Source: Patescibacteria group bacterium (GTDB lineage: Bacteria; Patescibacteriota; Gracilibacteria; UM-FILTER-43-11). Taken from it: a stretch of 50,592 nucleotides of DNA. Of the stretch, positions 1,530 through 38,148 are shown piece after piece. The notes under the pieces are model-generated. The model worked only from the letters and a program-made list of their open reading frames with translations, was not told the DNA's origin and did not search any database. The first letter of the stretch is position 1, and every line of letters begins with the position of its first letter. The position numbers and the translations under genes were made by a program. The stretch spans positions 1 through 50,592 of the forward strand of contig JAHIUN010000003.1 in NCBI GenBank assembly GCA_018817125.1. Direction: 5' to 3'.

Positions 1530-1608
1530 GAAATAACTCTTTATGTCAAAAGCTCTGCTCAAGAAGGCAGAAAATCTTTTTGAGGAGCGTTGCTGTACTG
1601 GTTCAATA

Positions 1609-1723
1609 GGGAAATCCTCGGATTTTCAAAAATCTTCTTCATTGTATTTCGCAGATTTTCAAAAATCCGCCCTCACTTCGAAGCGGCCTATGGCCTTTTC
1701 TTCGTTCGGAACGGATTTCTCGC
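1609..1723 (-). repeat. Structured repeat family A, copy 1
   Basis: Read on the minus strand. The closing stem is GAAATCC/GGATTTC (1719-1713 with 1617-1611). Hairpin 1 is GGCC-ATA-GGCC (1695-1685). Hairpin 2 is a 16-bp stem GGATTTTTGAAAATCT/AGATTTTTGAAAATCC (1668-1653 with 1635-1620) with two wobble pairs. The flank GTTCCGAACGAAG and the linker GAAGTGAGG are shared with copy 3 at 34840-34946, and the architecture with copy 2 at 21415-21521. A short open frame at 1543-1791 crosses it but is not believed to be a gene. Confidence 0.7.
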
Positions 1724-1804
1724 TATTTAGCAAAGGGCGCCGATGTATTTACACATGCTGTCACAATAAATTGTACGGACTGCAGAGGTGACATTGACGC
1801 CCTA

Positions 1805-20784: not shown

Positions 20785-21330
20785 ATGAATTTTATGAAAA
20801 AAGATGAATCTATTATACCATCCGAGCGTATCGAGCGCTCTATTTATATCATCCGTGGCCGGAAAGTGATTCTGGATCAGGATCTGGCGGCTCTTTATGG
20901 AGCGGAAACAAAAAATTTAAACAAAGCTGTCAGTCGTAATAAAAAACGATTTCCTGAAGATTTTATATTCAAATTAACAAAAGAGGAGTGGACCAACTTG
21001 AAGTTCCAATTTGGAACTTCAAGTTCAGATTGGGGAGGTAGGCGCAAATTACCAATGGCATTTACGGAGCATGGAGTCGTCATGGCAGCCAATTTATTAA
21101 AAAGTGATCGCGCGGTTACCATCAGCGTTGAAATTGTACGCACTTTTATCCGATTGCGGGAATTTTTCAGCTCTCAAAAAGAAATGAGCAAGGAATTAAG
21201 TGAATTAAAATCCTTTTTACTCAAACATTCCAACAAAACCAATCGTGAATTTCAAAGGGTGTGGCAGGCAATTGAAAAATTGACGGAGAAACCGAAAAAC
21301 CAAAGGCAGATCGGCTTTAGTCTAGACTGA
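20785..21330 (+). CDS. ORF6N-domain DNA-binding protein
   Basis: 181 aa (178 if the in-frame ATG at 20794 is used). Residues ~10-100 match the ORF6N domain: IERSIYIIRGRKVILDQDLAAL in part, YGAETKNLNKAVSRN, RFPEDFIFKL, then MAFTEHGVVMAANLL. The C-terminal part (130-170) is a probable coiled coil (EMSKELSELKSFLL). ORF6N proteins are known from phages and are common as chromosomal single genes in CPR; they are presumed DNA binders. It is tightly divergent from the Cys-rich operon and its own coding start contains that operon's promoter, so it is a candidate regulator. Confidence 0.85.
   Translation: MNFMKKDESIIPSERIERSIYIIRGRKVILDQDLAALYGAETKNLNKAVSRNKKRFPEDFIFKLTKEEWTNLKFQFGTSSSDWGGRRKLPMAFTEHGVVMAANLLKSDRAVTISVEIVRTFIRLREFFSSQKEMSKELSELKSFLLKHSNKTNREFQRVWQAIEKLTEKPKNQRQIGFSLD
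20812..20820 (-). promoter_or_regulatory. Extended -10 promoter of the Cys-rich operon, inside the ORF6N gene
   Basis: On the minus strand TGGTATAAT (20820-20812) is a perfect extended -10 with no -35. Start near 20805 gives a ~47-nt leader before the ATG at 20758. Confidence 0.55.
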
Positions 21331-21405
21331 TGGTGACCCCGACAGGAATCGAACCTGTATCTAAGCCTTAGGAGTGCCTTATTCTATCCGTTGAACTACG
21401 GGGTC
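21331..21405 (-). tRNA. tRNA-Arg (CCT anticodon)
   Basis: Acceptor GACCCCG/CGGGGTC, discriminator A, and an encoded CCA (21333-21331). D-arm GTTC...GAAT with a wobble, anticodon loop CTCCTAA (anticodon CCT), T-arm ACAGG-TTCGATT-CCTGT. The anticodon stem AGGCA/GGCTT contains a mismatch and a wobble, so it is weaker than usual. The encoded CCA contrasts with tRNA-Gln at 2883. Confidence 0.88.
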
Positions 21406-21414
21406 GGGAGATGT

Positions 21415-21521
21415 GAGAAATCCGTTCCGAACCGTAGAGACGCCATTCATGGCGACTAGAAGGTGAGGGCAAAATTGTGAGAATCTGCGCAGAAGATTAT
21501 TCGCAATTTTGAGGATTTCCC
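21415..21521 (+). repeat. Structured repeat family A, copy 2
   Basis: Closing stem GAAATCC/GGATTTC (21417-21423 with 21513-21519). Hairpin 1 is CGCCAT-TC-ATGGCG (21441-21454). Hairpin 2 pairs AAAATTGTGAGAATCT (21471-21486) with AGATTATTCGCAATTTT (21494-21510) with wobbles and one bulge. Stem sequences differ from copies 1 and 3 while pairing is kept. It lies just upstream of tRNA-Arg. Confidence 0.7.
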
Positions 21522-21595
21522 TTCTGAAATATTTTACAGAATCACTATACCTCAAAAATACCCTATTCGTCATTCATAATTCATCTTTCGTCATT

Positions 21596-33717: not shown

Positions 33718-34794
33718 TTAATCCAGTTGGGTTATTTCGACCACGGCCTTAGCGGGATGTGTCTGATGCTGAGCCATGTATTGATCACTGTTTTGAAAGG
33801 CACCGAAAAAGCTAAGCGCCAAAAGCAGACCGAGGGTCATAGAAAGGCTTTCTTCCAGTAAATTGAAATTGATGTGGCGCACAATAGGGATGTGATTCCA
33901 CAGGCGGGAAAAGTATTGGAAGCGGTCTTTATGAGGGCCGGCCTCACGCAGCATCTGTATGAGTTCACGCTGGGCAAACTGCCCCCATTTCCGTGCGTGC
34001 CGTTCCACCACGATGTAACGGACGGTGGCGAAAGCGATCAGCGTGATGAAGTAAACGGTGAGCGCCGTGGCAAACACACCGGCAAACACATAAACGATTA
34101 CCGTCCCGATTACCGCGAACAAGGCTCCGATGGTGGTCTGAGCGGAACTGATGTAGTCTTCTCTTTGTTTAAAATAAAGCTTGGTGCAAGCGTGGGCAAA
34201 GTAAAGCAGGCTGGCGGTCAGCGGTAACGCGTAAGTAACTGGAGGTGTGAGTAAACTGAAATTCAGAATGCTCCAGGAGCCGGTGAGTAAACCGGGTGCT
34301 TTTACCATGAGGTTCAGACCCCAAAAAGTGAAAAAGAAAAGAGCCATCTGAATCATCACTATGGTGGCACCGCGATGATGGATTTTTTCGTTCACGTCGT
34401 AAAGCTTATGAAGTTCGTCTTCAGTCTGACTAACGGATAGTTCGCCCTTGTTGAAACGGTCCACTAATTTTTTATGAAACAGGTGGATCTTTTTTTGTTT
34501 GAGCTGAATACGAAAGCTGGGATAAAGAAGAACCAGTTCCACCGAAAGCGCTAACAGGATGATGGAAAGCAGAACGCTTTTACCAGTTACTGTTAACAAG
34601 CTGTTCATGATCACCACAAACAATTTAGCCACCTCCGCTTTAAAGCCGGAGTAGATCAAAGGACTGGCAGAAACTCCGTGAAGCGTGCCTTCTACCGGCG
34701 CGTTCAGCAGTGATGCATTCCCCTGTATAAAAGCTAGGTAAACGCTGAGTGCAAAGAGACCAAGGGTGGTGAAAATTAATCCGAATCGTTTCAT
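33718..34794 (-). CDS. YidC/Oxa1-like divergent membrane protein heading the surface operon
   Basis: 358 aa. N-terminal helix, a short outside segment, then the YidC-like order: TM (SVLLSIILLALSVELVLLYP), a charged cytoplasmic hairpin (KQKKIHLFHKKLVDRFNKGE...DELHKLYDV), TM (TIVMIQMALFFFTFWGL), and further TMs (THE rest to about 270), a cytoplasmic segment and a last TM near the end. YidC inserts proteins into the membrane. Similarity is in topology and hairpin pattern rather than strong sequence motifs, so this is a probable paralog. Being first in an operon of anchored surface proteins, it may be their dedicated insertase (inference). Confidence 0.6.
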   Translation of the reverse strand: MKRFGLIFTTLGLFALSVYLAFIQGNASLLNAPVEGTLHGVSASPLIYSGFKAEVAKLFVVIMNSLLTVTGKSVLLSIILLALSVELVLLYPSFRIQLKQKKIHLFHKKLVDRFNKGELSVSQTEDELHKLYDVNEKIHHRGATIVMIQMALFFFTFWGLNLMVKAPGLLTGSWSILNFSLLTPPVTYALPLTASLLYFAHACTKLYFKQREDYISSAQTTIGALFAVIGTVIVYVFAGVFATALTVYFITLIAFATVRYIVVERHARKWGQFAQRELIQMLREAGPHKDRFQYFSRLWNHIPIVRHINFNLLEESLSMTLGLLLALSFFGAFQNSDQYMAQHQTHPAKAVVEITQLD

Positions 34795-34839
34795 GTGTGT
34801 TTTTGTTTTTGTTTAGTTTTTTTCTGTTGTGATTCAAAA

Positions 34840-34946
34840 GGGAAATTTGCTTCCCGATTGCAACCTTCAACTTCGTTCAGGTCACATCGGGATCCTCACT
34901 TCACAGCGACCTTCGGTCTTTGCTTCGTTCGGAACGCATTTCTCGC
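34840..34946 (-). repeat. Structured repeat family A, copy 3
   Basis: Read on the minus strand: closing stem GAAATGC with GCAAATTTC, hairpin 1 GACC-GAA-GGTC (34918-34908), hairpin 2 CCCGATGTGACCT/AGGTTGCAATCGGG (34891-34879 with 34866-34853). It shares GCGAGAAAT, CGTTCCGAACGAAG and GAAGTGAGG with copy 1. It lies in the predicted 5' leader of the surface operon, starting about 13 nt after the expected transcript start. Confidence 0.65.
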
Positions 34947-34965
34947 TTCTTCTTGAAATCTTAAT

Positions 34966-34994
34966 ATTATAGCAAAATTCCTCTGATTTATCAA
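34966..34994 (-). promoter_or_regulatory. Sigma70-type promoter of the surface operon
   Basis: On the minus strand TTGATA (34994-34989), a 17-nt spacer, and TATAAT (34971-34966). It is the best promoter upstream of 34794 and would give a leader of about 165 nt that includes the family-A element. Confidence 0.7.
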
Positions 34995-35652: not shown

Positions 35653-38148
35653 ATGAAACCTCTTTCCCATAAAATCATCGCCACTCTTTTTATCGCCCTC
35701 ATGACGTTCGGTGTTTTAGGAATCGGACAACCGACTTTGGCGCAAGAGGAGCCAGCGGTAACCGGCGGAGATCCGGCGCTGACGAATTTATGGGTCATCA
35801 ACTCGACCCCGGCCCCGGGTGGACTGGTGGATTTTACGGTTTATTTTACCAATCTTGGAAATGTGACAGCAACGGATGTGGCACTTCGAATCGATTATGA
35901 CGAAACTCAGCTTTTCAATCTTTCCGTCGGCAGTCCGATCGACTGCCGTGATAACGGCGACAGTATTATCTGTAATTACATCAGTGTCGATTCCGGGGCC
36001 TCGGGTACGGTCGGTTTTACCGCACTGGTAGAACCCACAGTCGCCCCCGGCACAGAAATCATCACCACCGCGTCTATCGACGCCAATGAAAATGATTTGA
36101 TCCGGAATGACTTTGGGAATGTGGTGGTCACCGTCGGCGCCGCCGGAGCTGGCGGAATGATGGTTCCTACTGGATTTTCCGGTACGCCGATTGCCGATTT
36201 TGAGACTGGAACACTGGAGACGCCCTCCGAAAATCAGGGAGTCGCCCTGTTTAATGTACAAAACAATCCCAACTGGAGCACCAGCGCGCTGACCACTGCG
36301 GGCCTCAAGTTTATGATCCGCGGAAAGGAAGCTTTGGCCTGGTCACTGAATATTGAGGAGGCCGGTTTCGACAGCCCTGCTATCCGCGCCAGTTACAACA
36401 AAGTGCTGACAGTGATCAATAGTCTGTTTATTGTCGGCTTACTCGCCATCGCGGCCATGTGGATGTTCAGCCTGTTTATTCCCCGTCGGTATTTACGGCA
36501 GGTAATCCTGGTGTACGCGCTGGCGGTGGTGTTTGTGAATTTTGCTTTTCCTTTAAACCAGCTGTTTATCGACGGAACCAACTTGCTCCAAAAGTCCTTT
36601 TTAAGCGGTGTGAATATCAGCAATATTGCGGAGACTCCCAGCTATAATGACCAGACGGCCATTGGTTATCTGGATGAAACAAATGTTTTAAAACAGACTA
36701 ATACTCAGACACTTAATTTTAAACTGCCTCAGGAGAACGAGGCGATGAGCGATGTGGTGATCGGTAAACTGCAACAGGACTTTTTGAGCCCCAGTTATAC
36801 CGGCACGCTGAGCTATCTGGATGAAGACGGTCAGCCGAAACAGGAGACGGTAACGCTTCGCGCCGCCGGCAATGACCCGCTTCTTCGGCTGAACGCAGAT
36901 CAGACGATCGAATTAGTGAATGAAAAAAAATTCAATCCGGATCAGGAAAATTCTATTTTCGCGTTCCTGCTTATGCTGCTCACCGGCCTGGCTTATTTGG
37001 GAATGGCACTGATTTTTATTCTGCGTATCGTGTTTTTATGGGCGCTTCTTATCGTATCGCCGATACTCTTTTTACTAGCGATCTTCCATGCCACCCGCAG
37101 TTATTTCATCAACTGGCTCGGCGTATACGCCCGATGGTTACTGATCGGACCCCTGATGGCATTGGGGCTTTCCATTGTAGTGGGTATCTGGAAAACGGTG
37201 GGCCTTCCAATCATCAGCAGTTACCAGAGCATCGCGCAGTTCGGCGGACTATCAAACATCGGTTTTTATCTGCCGGGAAGTGATGTGGTGAATAATTTAA
37301 GAACCACTTCACAAATGATGCAGTACTTTTTATTCCTCATTATGCTGTATCTGCCGATTTTCTTTGCGCTTATGCTCACCCGCCAAAAACTGTGGAATTC
37401 GGCGGCCATGGCGGTCGCGGAAAAACGGGAAGCCCTGAGAACGCCATCTGTCGCATCGACAATAACGGAAAAAGAAACTATTGAAACTGAAAAAGGGATC
37501 GCACTACCGGAAGGAATCCGTGGCCTTTTAGGCGGTAAATTCGCCGGAAAAACCACTATGCCCGAAACCCTAAAGGCTGAAGAAGCTCGCACCCTTCGCC
37601 CCATGGAAACCGCCAGCAGTTTTTTACCTGAACACCTGGCGCTGAGCGGGATGCGGGATATGCTGGGATTAGTGGCCGGCAATAAAGATTCACGTCATGT
37701 ACATGGAGATGCCATTGAAAAAATGGCCAATCCTGCCAGTATTACTGATAATAAAGAACAGCGGAATGTTATGGCTGTCCGGCAGGAAATCGAAAGCCGG
37801 GCGAGTGGAGGCGACCCGGAAGCAACACGGATCATGAGTGAAATAAAGGAAGTGGAGACCCAGACGTTTACCGAAAAAGAAACGGCGGCCGGCGAACCGA
37901 TAATGGTGGAACCGATGATGGAGGTGAATGTGACGGCGCCGAAGCCGGAAAAAGAAATTAAAAAACCCGAACCAATGCCAACAGCCAAAAAAGAGGAATT
38001 AATCGGGGAAGAATCTGAACAGCCTGAACCCGACGATACGGCGAAAACGCAAGATGACGCCGTAGAGACGGATCATGATCCGTCTCAGGAGGATGAAAAA
38101 AAGGACGACAAATCAACTGATAACCCCCCTGATGCTGATGAAAAATAG
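35653..38148 (+). CDS. VirB6/TrbL-like membrane protein with DUF11-type ectodomain
   Basis: 831 aa. Signal peptide (to about residue 30, ending LAQEE). A DUF11-like Ig domain (about 38-165; TNLWVINSTPAPGGLVDFTV in form, LGNVTATDVALRIDY). Then membrane helices at about 255-275 and 280-305, a loop, and a cluster of helices (about 430-580) typical of VirB6/TrbL channel proteins. The cytoplasmic tail (about 600-831) is charged and ends in an Asp/Glu/Lys-rich stretch. Followed by pilin genes (11-bp overlap with the next), it is the probable membrane channel of a type IV secretion or DNA-uptake machine. Confidence 0.7.
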   Translation: MKPLSHKIIATLFIALMTFGVLGIGQPTLAQEEPAVTGGDPALTNLWVINSTPAPGGLVDFTVYFTNLGNVTATDVALRIDYDETQLFNLSVGSPIDCRDNGDSIICNYISVDSGASGTVGFTALVEPTVAPGTEIITTASIDANENDLIRNDFGNVVVTVGAAGAGGMMVPTGFSGTPIADFETGTLETPSENQGVALFNVQNNPNWSTSALTTAGLKFMIRGKEALAWSLNIEEAGFDSPAIRASYNKVLTVINSLFIVGLLAIAAMWMFSLFIPRRYLRQVILVYALAVVFVNFAFPLNQLFIDGTNLLQKSFLSGVNISNIAETPSYNDQTAIGYLDETNVLKQTNTQTLNFKLPQENEAMSDVVIGKLQQDFLSPSYTGTLSYLDEDGQPKQETVTLRAAGNDPLLRLNADQTIELVNEKKFNPDQENSIFAFLLMLLTGLAYLGMALIFILRIVFLWALLIVSPILFLLAIFHATRSYFINWLGVYARWLLIGPLMALGLSIVVGIWKTVGLPIISSYQSIAQFGGLSNIGFYLPGSDVVNNLRTTSQMMQYFLFLIMLYLPIFFALMLTRQKLWNSAAMAVAEKREALRTPSVASTITEKETIETEKGIALPEGIRGLLGGKFAGKTTMPETLKAEEARTLRPMETASSFLPEHLALSGMRDMLGLVAGNKDSRHVHGDAIEKMANPASITDNKEQRNVMAVRQEIESRASGGDPEATRIMSEIKEVETQTFTEKETAAGEPIMVEPMMEVNVTAPKPEKEIKKPEPMPTAKKEELIGEESEQPEPDDTAKTQDDAVETDHDPSQEDEKKDDKSTDNPPDADEK

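Follow-up and report, generated by a model that had tools for sequence, protein, structure and literature searches.

Intergenic MITEs of the ERIC/IRU, Correia, and RUP types are imperfect palindromes of roughly 100–130 bp that lie between genes, belong to double-stranded DNA MITE types or to unknown ones, and use TA or similar targets; we know of no rule that ties any of them to gene boundaries. Single-strand insertion of the IS200/IS605 type gives a specific left flank and a free right flank. For Patescibacteria, very little is known, to our knowledge, about non-coding elements that move or fold. In the REP system, TnpAREP requires a bulged stem preceded on its 5′ side by GTAG, and this guide selects cleavage at CT or CA (PMC8266576).

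The present study followed up a dispersed repeat in a Patescibacteria genome (1.03 Mb, 89% complete); among named relatives, the nearest to this genome is JAFGCR010000002.1, from a Candidatus Peregrinibacteria MAG. The window, by which we mean the whole 50,592-nt stretch of DNA that was analyzed, had been read beforehand from its letters, and this sequence-only reading had described three copies of a structured repeat whose stems had changed in sequence while keeping their pairing.

The window copies and their fold

All three copies were present on the strands given for them when the window was read in both directions, each with the common closing stem and two inner arms that had been described, and every hairpin variant quoted earlier was genuine and had its matching partner. 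Their locations held; their extents did not, the outer limits being wider and the closing stem running 5–8 bp further out. The CGTTCCGAAC motif, which had been taken for a single-stranded flank, opens the second helix, in which UCC-GA-AC pairs with GU-GA-GG across a tandem G-A loop.

Copy 2 (21407..21532, plus strand; R1 model match of 111 bits, E 2e-18) comprises the whole three-way junction. The 5′ strand of its closing stem P1, AGATGTGAGAAATCC (21409..21423, plus), carries the foot AGATG and two single-base bulges (T and A) and pairs with the 3′ strand, GGATTTCCCTTCT (21513..21525, plus); between them stand P2, or hairpin 1 (21426..21469, plus), with TCC-GA-AC, the variable tip CGCCAT/ATGGCG, and GT-GA-GG, and P3, or hairpin 2 (21470..21512, plus), a long stem of variable sequence. 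The left foot lies 3 nt from the 5′ end of a tRNA-Arg(CCT) on the minus strand (21331..21405). At the 3′ end of the same tRNA, at 21331, the stop codon of an ORF6N-domain gene (20785-21330) directly abuts it, possibly as another tRNA-docked insertion.

Copy 3 (34829..34952, minus strand; R1 model match of 87 bits) has the foot AGAAG at 34950, with a TATAAT, a putative −10 box (34966..34971, minus), 15 nt before it. Downstream is a 358-aa YidC-like gene (33718..34794, minus) with a weak match to 60KD_IMP (YidC/Oxa1) of 27.9 bits against a curated cut-off of 35, and the copy likely falls within the 5′ UTR of this gene. The gene at 35653-38148 encodes a protein of 831 aa with two domains, one TrbL/VirB6-like and the other DUF11. 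Copy 1 (1598..1729, minus strand; R1 model match of 131 bits, E 3e-22) has the foot AATAG at 1727-1723, and a putative 66-codon open frame of uncertain coding status ends on the same strand at the TAG of this foot. The low-complexity frame at 11-1371, with its RSMSSPGRLRPPRNRCRPGGS repeats, probably lies opposite the true coding strand of a repeat-rich gene.

In general form, the element measures about 130 bases, and one of its strands folds into a three-way junction that is conserved. P1 reads 5′-AGTAG[C/T]G[A]GAAAYGC ... GCRTTTCCCTATT-3′, with 13 pairs and two single-base bulges, both on the 5′ side; P2 (TCC-GA-AC ... GT-GA-GG) has the tandem G-A loop followed by a hairpin of variable sequence; and P3 is a long hairpin whose sequence is wholly different from copy to copy. 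Selection on RNA or DNA structure, for which the earlier reading had named an absence of further copies and of significant covariation as the refutation, is borne out by the further copies described below and by an alignment (A2) of 107 copies from the GTDB family. Standard pairs fill 95.8% of the paired cells, against 80% after column shuffling and at most 56% when partners were slid (49–56% for a slide of one base). Both sides are changed in 17 of the 21 pairs, and double changes occupy 342 cells against a shuffled mean of 91, a level that none of 500 shuffles reached, although these covariation counts are somewhat inflated by the alignment of A2 to a model already carrying the structure. 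The same pair exchanges were already present in the first MAFFT alignment of 11 copies, which was made without structure. Covariation of this kind is among the cleanest structural signals that a dispersed repeat can give.

We take the strand of the sequence-only reading to be the functional one, whether as RNA or as single-stranded DNA, because its non-Watson-Crick cells are more often G-T than A-C (58 versus 19, p 1e-5, leaving out the outermost G-T pair, which is conserved in 67 copies) and because the sense fold is the more stable, with RNA parameters in 106 of 110 copies and with DNA parameters in 104. All context classes lean the same way toward G-T; taken singly, just two of them, the start-codon class and the "other" class, are significant.

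Distribution and insertion of the family

Covariance-model searches recovered many further copies, both in the window's own genome and in its relatives. The genome itself holds about 20 (E down to 3e-22 with a model built from 11 copies), and 18 of 58 relatives are carriers, with up to 24 copies per genome. With a second model, whose scoring covered only some nine candidates from each genome, the element was found in 41 of the 353 genomes of the class, patchily and in at least ten families; when 380 genomes were sampled evenly across the phylum, none outside the class was a carrier. Rfam searches at gathering and relaxed thresholds returned tRNAs only and no family matching the element, viral contigs contained no exact match to it, and a literature search retrieved no description of it. 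The family is previously unlisted and is found in some Peregrinibacteria and relatives. Copy number is high and patchy, copies occur in either orientation relative to genes, the density is about 20 per Mb, and the element is found inside the ribosomal-protein operons of streamlined genomes.

That copies have been inserted is indicated by a comparison with about 1.04 Mb of one sister species of the same genus (G001), in which eight of the places compared are empty, namely those upstream of murJ, rplN, rplF, and an ftsE-like gene, the loci L044 and L052, the tRNA-Arg site of copy 2, and the YidC-like 5′ UTR site of copy 3, where TATAATATTAAGATTT is conserved. The murJ site reads CATG-TCTGG when empty and CATGATT-[AGTAG...CTATTG]-TCTGG when occupied, and apart from perhaps 1 nt, insertion has left no duplicated target. 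In one further genome (G006), the copies at rplN and rplB are 99% identical. Copies at the same gene recur across genera, at rplN in three for example; this counts against mobility alone and suggests that copies are kept because they are used or that the same gene is targeted again and again.

In 21 of 146 copies, against 0.25 expected, the right end is followed by a second left end, and at L308, L153, and L151 these repeats are of the same stem variant and are cut short. Left-end-only or shortened copies at rplV, rpsL, and rpmJ keep the P1 foot, still 4 nt from the ATG; there is no clear case of a right-end-only copy. Partial left ends and shortened copies fit either one-ended or rolling-circle synthesis or decayed tandem copies. 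A product of rolling-circle or one-ended transposition, with synthesis that begins at the left end but has no set stopping point, would come in full, more-than-unit, and left-end-only forms, as the partial repeats behind right ends and the shortened ribosomal-gene copies do. Secondary decay of tandem copies would look alike, however, and the partial repeat at L052 may be an old target, and we regard such an origin as highly improbable.

Two further features of the ends were observed. Right flanks in G000, G001, and G005 (e.g., L051, L092, and L043) continue into about 45 nt of further conserved sequence (GAACCAGYACAGGGAAGCTC...CGTGCTTCTC) that contains a second complement to the left P1 strand, giving two competing right partners; the limits of the empty sites suggest that the extension belongs to the inserted unit. 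Upstream of tRNA-Leu, variants at L074:1083-1211, L286:1501-1623, and L057:1501-1627 have a right foot that overlaps the tRNA 5′ end, and in L074 and L286 the first bases of the tRNA-Leu recur on the element's left side as a direct repeat of 10–14 nt, which looks like a duplication of the site.

Given the fold and its covariation, the strand asymmetry, the patchy copies, the empty sites, and the near-identical and tandem copies, we think it on balance probable that the family is a mobile element similar in kind to REPs and MITEs, present in many copies and non-autonomous, in which one active strand folds. This strand would fold, as single-stranded DNA (or RNA), into the three-way junction formed by P1 with its two 5′-side bulges and AGTAG-type foot, the G-A-rich P2, and the variable P3. 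A putative enzyme would read the fold more than most of the sequence, so that the stems could drift with compensating changes.

Docking of the left foot at gene boundaries

The left foot of P1 lies almost always 0–4 nt from a functional boundary, be it a start codon, a tRNA or tmRNA end, a stop codon, or a TATAAT, and the right end follows no comparable rule. From the start codon to the left foot, with antisense frames verified, the distance is 4 nt in 32 of 37 copies, 3 nt in four, and 1 nt in one (L090, a tRNA site with Ns, was excluded from this count). Thirty-four copies adjoin a tRNA or tmRNA, either on its 3′ side after CCA or on its 5′ side in antisense, the spacing to TATAAT is exactly 4 nt in six copies and 15 nt in two, and the remaining copies are mostly at stop codons, where the TAG of the foot is often used, or behind another copy. 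The left flanks are of several kinds (CAT-N4, TATAAT-N4, and CCA-N3/4). Outside the GTDB family, the copies adjoin stop codons or the ends of tRNAs, and the start-codon spacing was not found.

The combination of a specific left flank with a free right flank is what single-strand insertion of the IS200/IS605 type gives, and it counts for the mobile element, whose insertion would set the left foot against a gene boundary and leave the right side free. Once inserted, the element may be bulged out of the transcript by its closed P1, with the neighboring gene still working. Insertion alone leaves unexplained why the copies beside CAT are always at start codons, because between genes non-start CAT/ATG outnumber start codons roughly threefold (690 versus 225). 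The chance of such start-codon-only docking is about 1e-22, a rough figure in that short genes were not called.

Several simpler targets were considered. The bare CAT trinucleotide was rejected, as all CAT-adjacent copies stand at start codons; hairpins left of start codons provided no common target (z near 0); guide-like pairing between the element's interior and its flanks did not rise above permuted controls except in tandem copies; and a search for simple mini-hairpins with the same foot elsewhere gave none that was convincing. Ribosomal-operon spacers at L093, L096, and L098 are AT-rich (AATTTTCAATTTTTAATTTTC-ATG), many are 35–37 nt long with no evident Shine-Dalgarno sequence, and some contain tandem CTCAGAT repeats.

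The foot itself depends on context, and this dependence holds across genera. Start-codon copies have AGTAG/CTATT in 33–35 of 39 cases, promoter copies have AGATG, AGAAG, or GGATG, and tRNA copies have AGATG, AGTAG, AATAG, or AGTTG; ACATG is also found among the non-start-codon copies. A foot matched to its context is expected either from selection or from a guide-like role of the foot. As to why boundaries are hit, one reading, which we hold to be somewhat unlikely, is that the element would find gene edges themselves, at a fixed spacing and with a foot suited to the kind of edge, its insertion being guided by transcription, translation, or folded genes and not by a target sequence. The docking rule is unusual and makes the matter testable: either gene boundaries, and not sequence, decide where the element is placed, or its copies are kept by the host for use.

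Use by the host would be the whole explanation if the copies were an RNA with a regulatory or processing role that had spread to many genes, acting in transcripts at start codons, 5′ UTRs, tRNA ends, and 3′ ends through translation insulation, RNA stability, or end processing, with the fixed distances under selection. The constant spacing to start codons, TATAAT, and tRNA ends accords with such a role, as do the enrichment at rplN, rplF, rplB, rplO, rpsL, rpmJ, tuf, atp-type genes, and tRNAs, the preference, seen across genera, for an AGTAG foot beside start codons but AGATG beside promoters and many tRNAs, and the foot and spacing retained by the shortened copies. However, the folded, wobble-tolerant strand is antisense at start codons (G-T 21 versus A-C 7 in these copies) and at tRNA 5′ ends, which means that selection does not act on the mRNA; no gene function is common to the sites; and many sites, even those at rplN and rplF, are empty in the sister species. 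A cis-regulatory leader would have the mRNA strand as the selected strand and would precede related genes, whereas here the strand is antisense and the genes are unrelated. We consider a regulatory RNA unlikely as an account of the family, and some copies at least may be in regulatory use.

Candidate movers and comparison with known systems

RAYT-like genes occur in the window's own genome (best family NF047646, one above the cut-off). Across the class, RAYT genes were found in 21 of 41 carriers and 144 of 312 non-carriers (Fisher p 0.62), some element-rich genomes lack them (e.g., G314, G272, and G018), and only one of 20 loci with Y1 transposase genes has a copy. RAYT and Y1 transposases were rejected as movers, being present but neither linked to nor associated with the element. 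A retroelement product was likewise rejected, since reverse transcriptase genes are not associated with carriers (10 of 41, versus 108 of 312 others, and none in the window's own genome). No autonomous version of the element was seen, which counts against a mobile element, nor, in its own genome, a pair of left and right ends around a transposase. As observations on these gene families, RAYT-like genes of several genera (L100-L119) share an upstream TTTTGTATTTAAATGAAT leader, as if moving with a fixed 5′ end, and reverse transcriptase matches in families f10, f14, and f21 are rich in TGA codons within the frame, as would fit a reassignment of this codon in some members of the class.

If the copies were true REP elements moved by a resident TnpAREP/RAYT with a similar GTAG guide and bulged stem, the A-GTAG foot with its single-base bulges, the CA contained in the CAT and CCA flanks, and the RAYT-like genes of the own genome would all find a place. 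We judge this quite improbable: carriage of RAYT does not follow carriage of the element, RAYT genes are not flanked by copies, a 130-nt three-way junction is unlike the REP or REPIN layout, and the TATAAT flanks contain neither CA nor CT.

Turning to the mobile element of the REP/MITE kind that we favor, its size and its form as an intergenic palindrome are shared with the ERIC/IRU, Correia, and RUP types. Integron attC sites resemble it in the folded single strand, bulged bases, variable interior, and nearby gene starts, but the element is without the RYYYAAC/GTTRRRY core, its aligned copies ending in AGTAG... and ...CTATTG, and the docked genes are not integron cassettes because they keep their conserved operon order, as rplN, rplF, rplB, and rplO do. 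With IS200/IS605-derived MITEs (PATEs) it has in common left-flank specificity, the absence of target duplication, and a one-strand fold; unlike them, its flanks have no single common target, the differing left flanks standing in place of the fixed tetra- or pentanucleotide of IS200/IS605. No IS with these ends was found in the window's own genome.

REP/REPIN sequences and TnpAREP (RAYT) offer the longest list of likenesses: both kinds of sequence are extragenic, high-copy, and non-coding, with a strand-specific fold, a 5′ GTAG foot, and a bulged stem, and RAYT-like genes are present in many of the same genomes. The 5′ GTAG is matched by AGTAG in 35 of 39 start-codon copies, with AGATG, AGTTG, and ACATG elsewhere. 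A REP, however, is a 20–40-nt hairpin or an inverted pair of these, whereas the element is a three-way junction of about 130 nt that shows no co-occurrence with or linkage to RAYT and docks at start codons, TATAAT, and tRNA ends. The family is real, strongly covarying, strand-specific, and inserted; it fails the RAYT tests, and its behavior is most like that of the REP/MITE kind.
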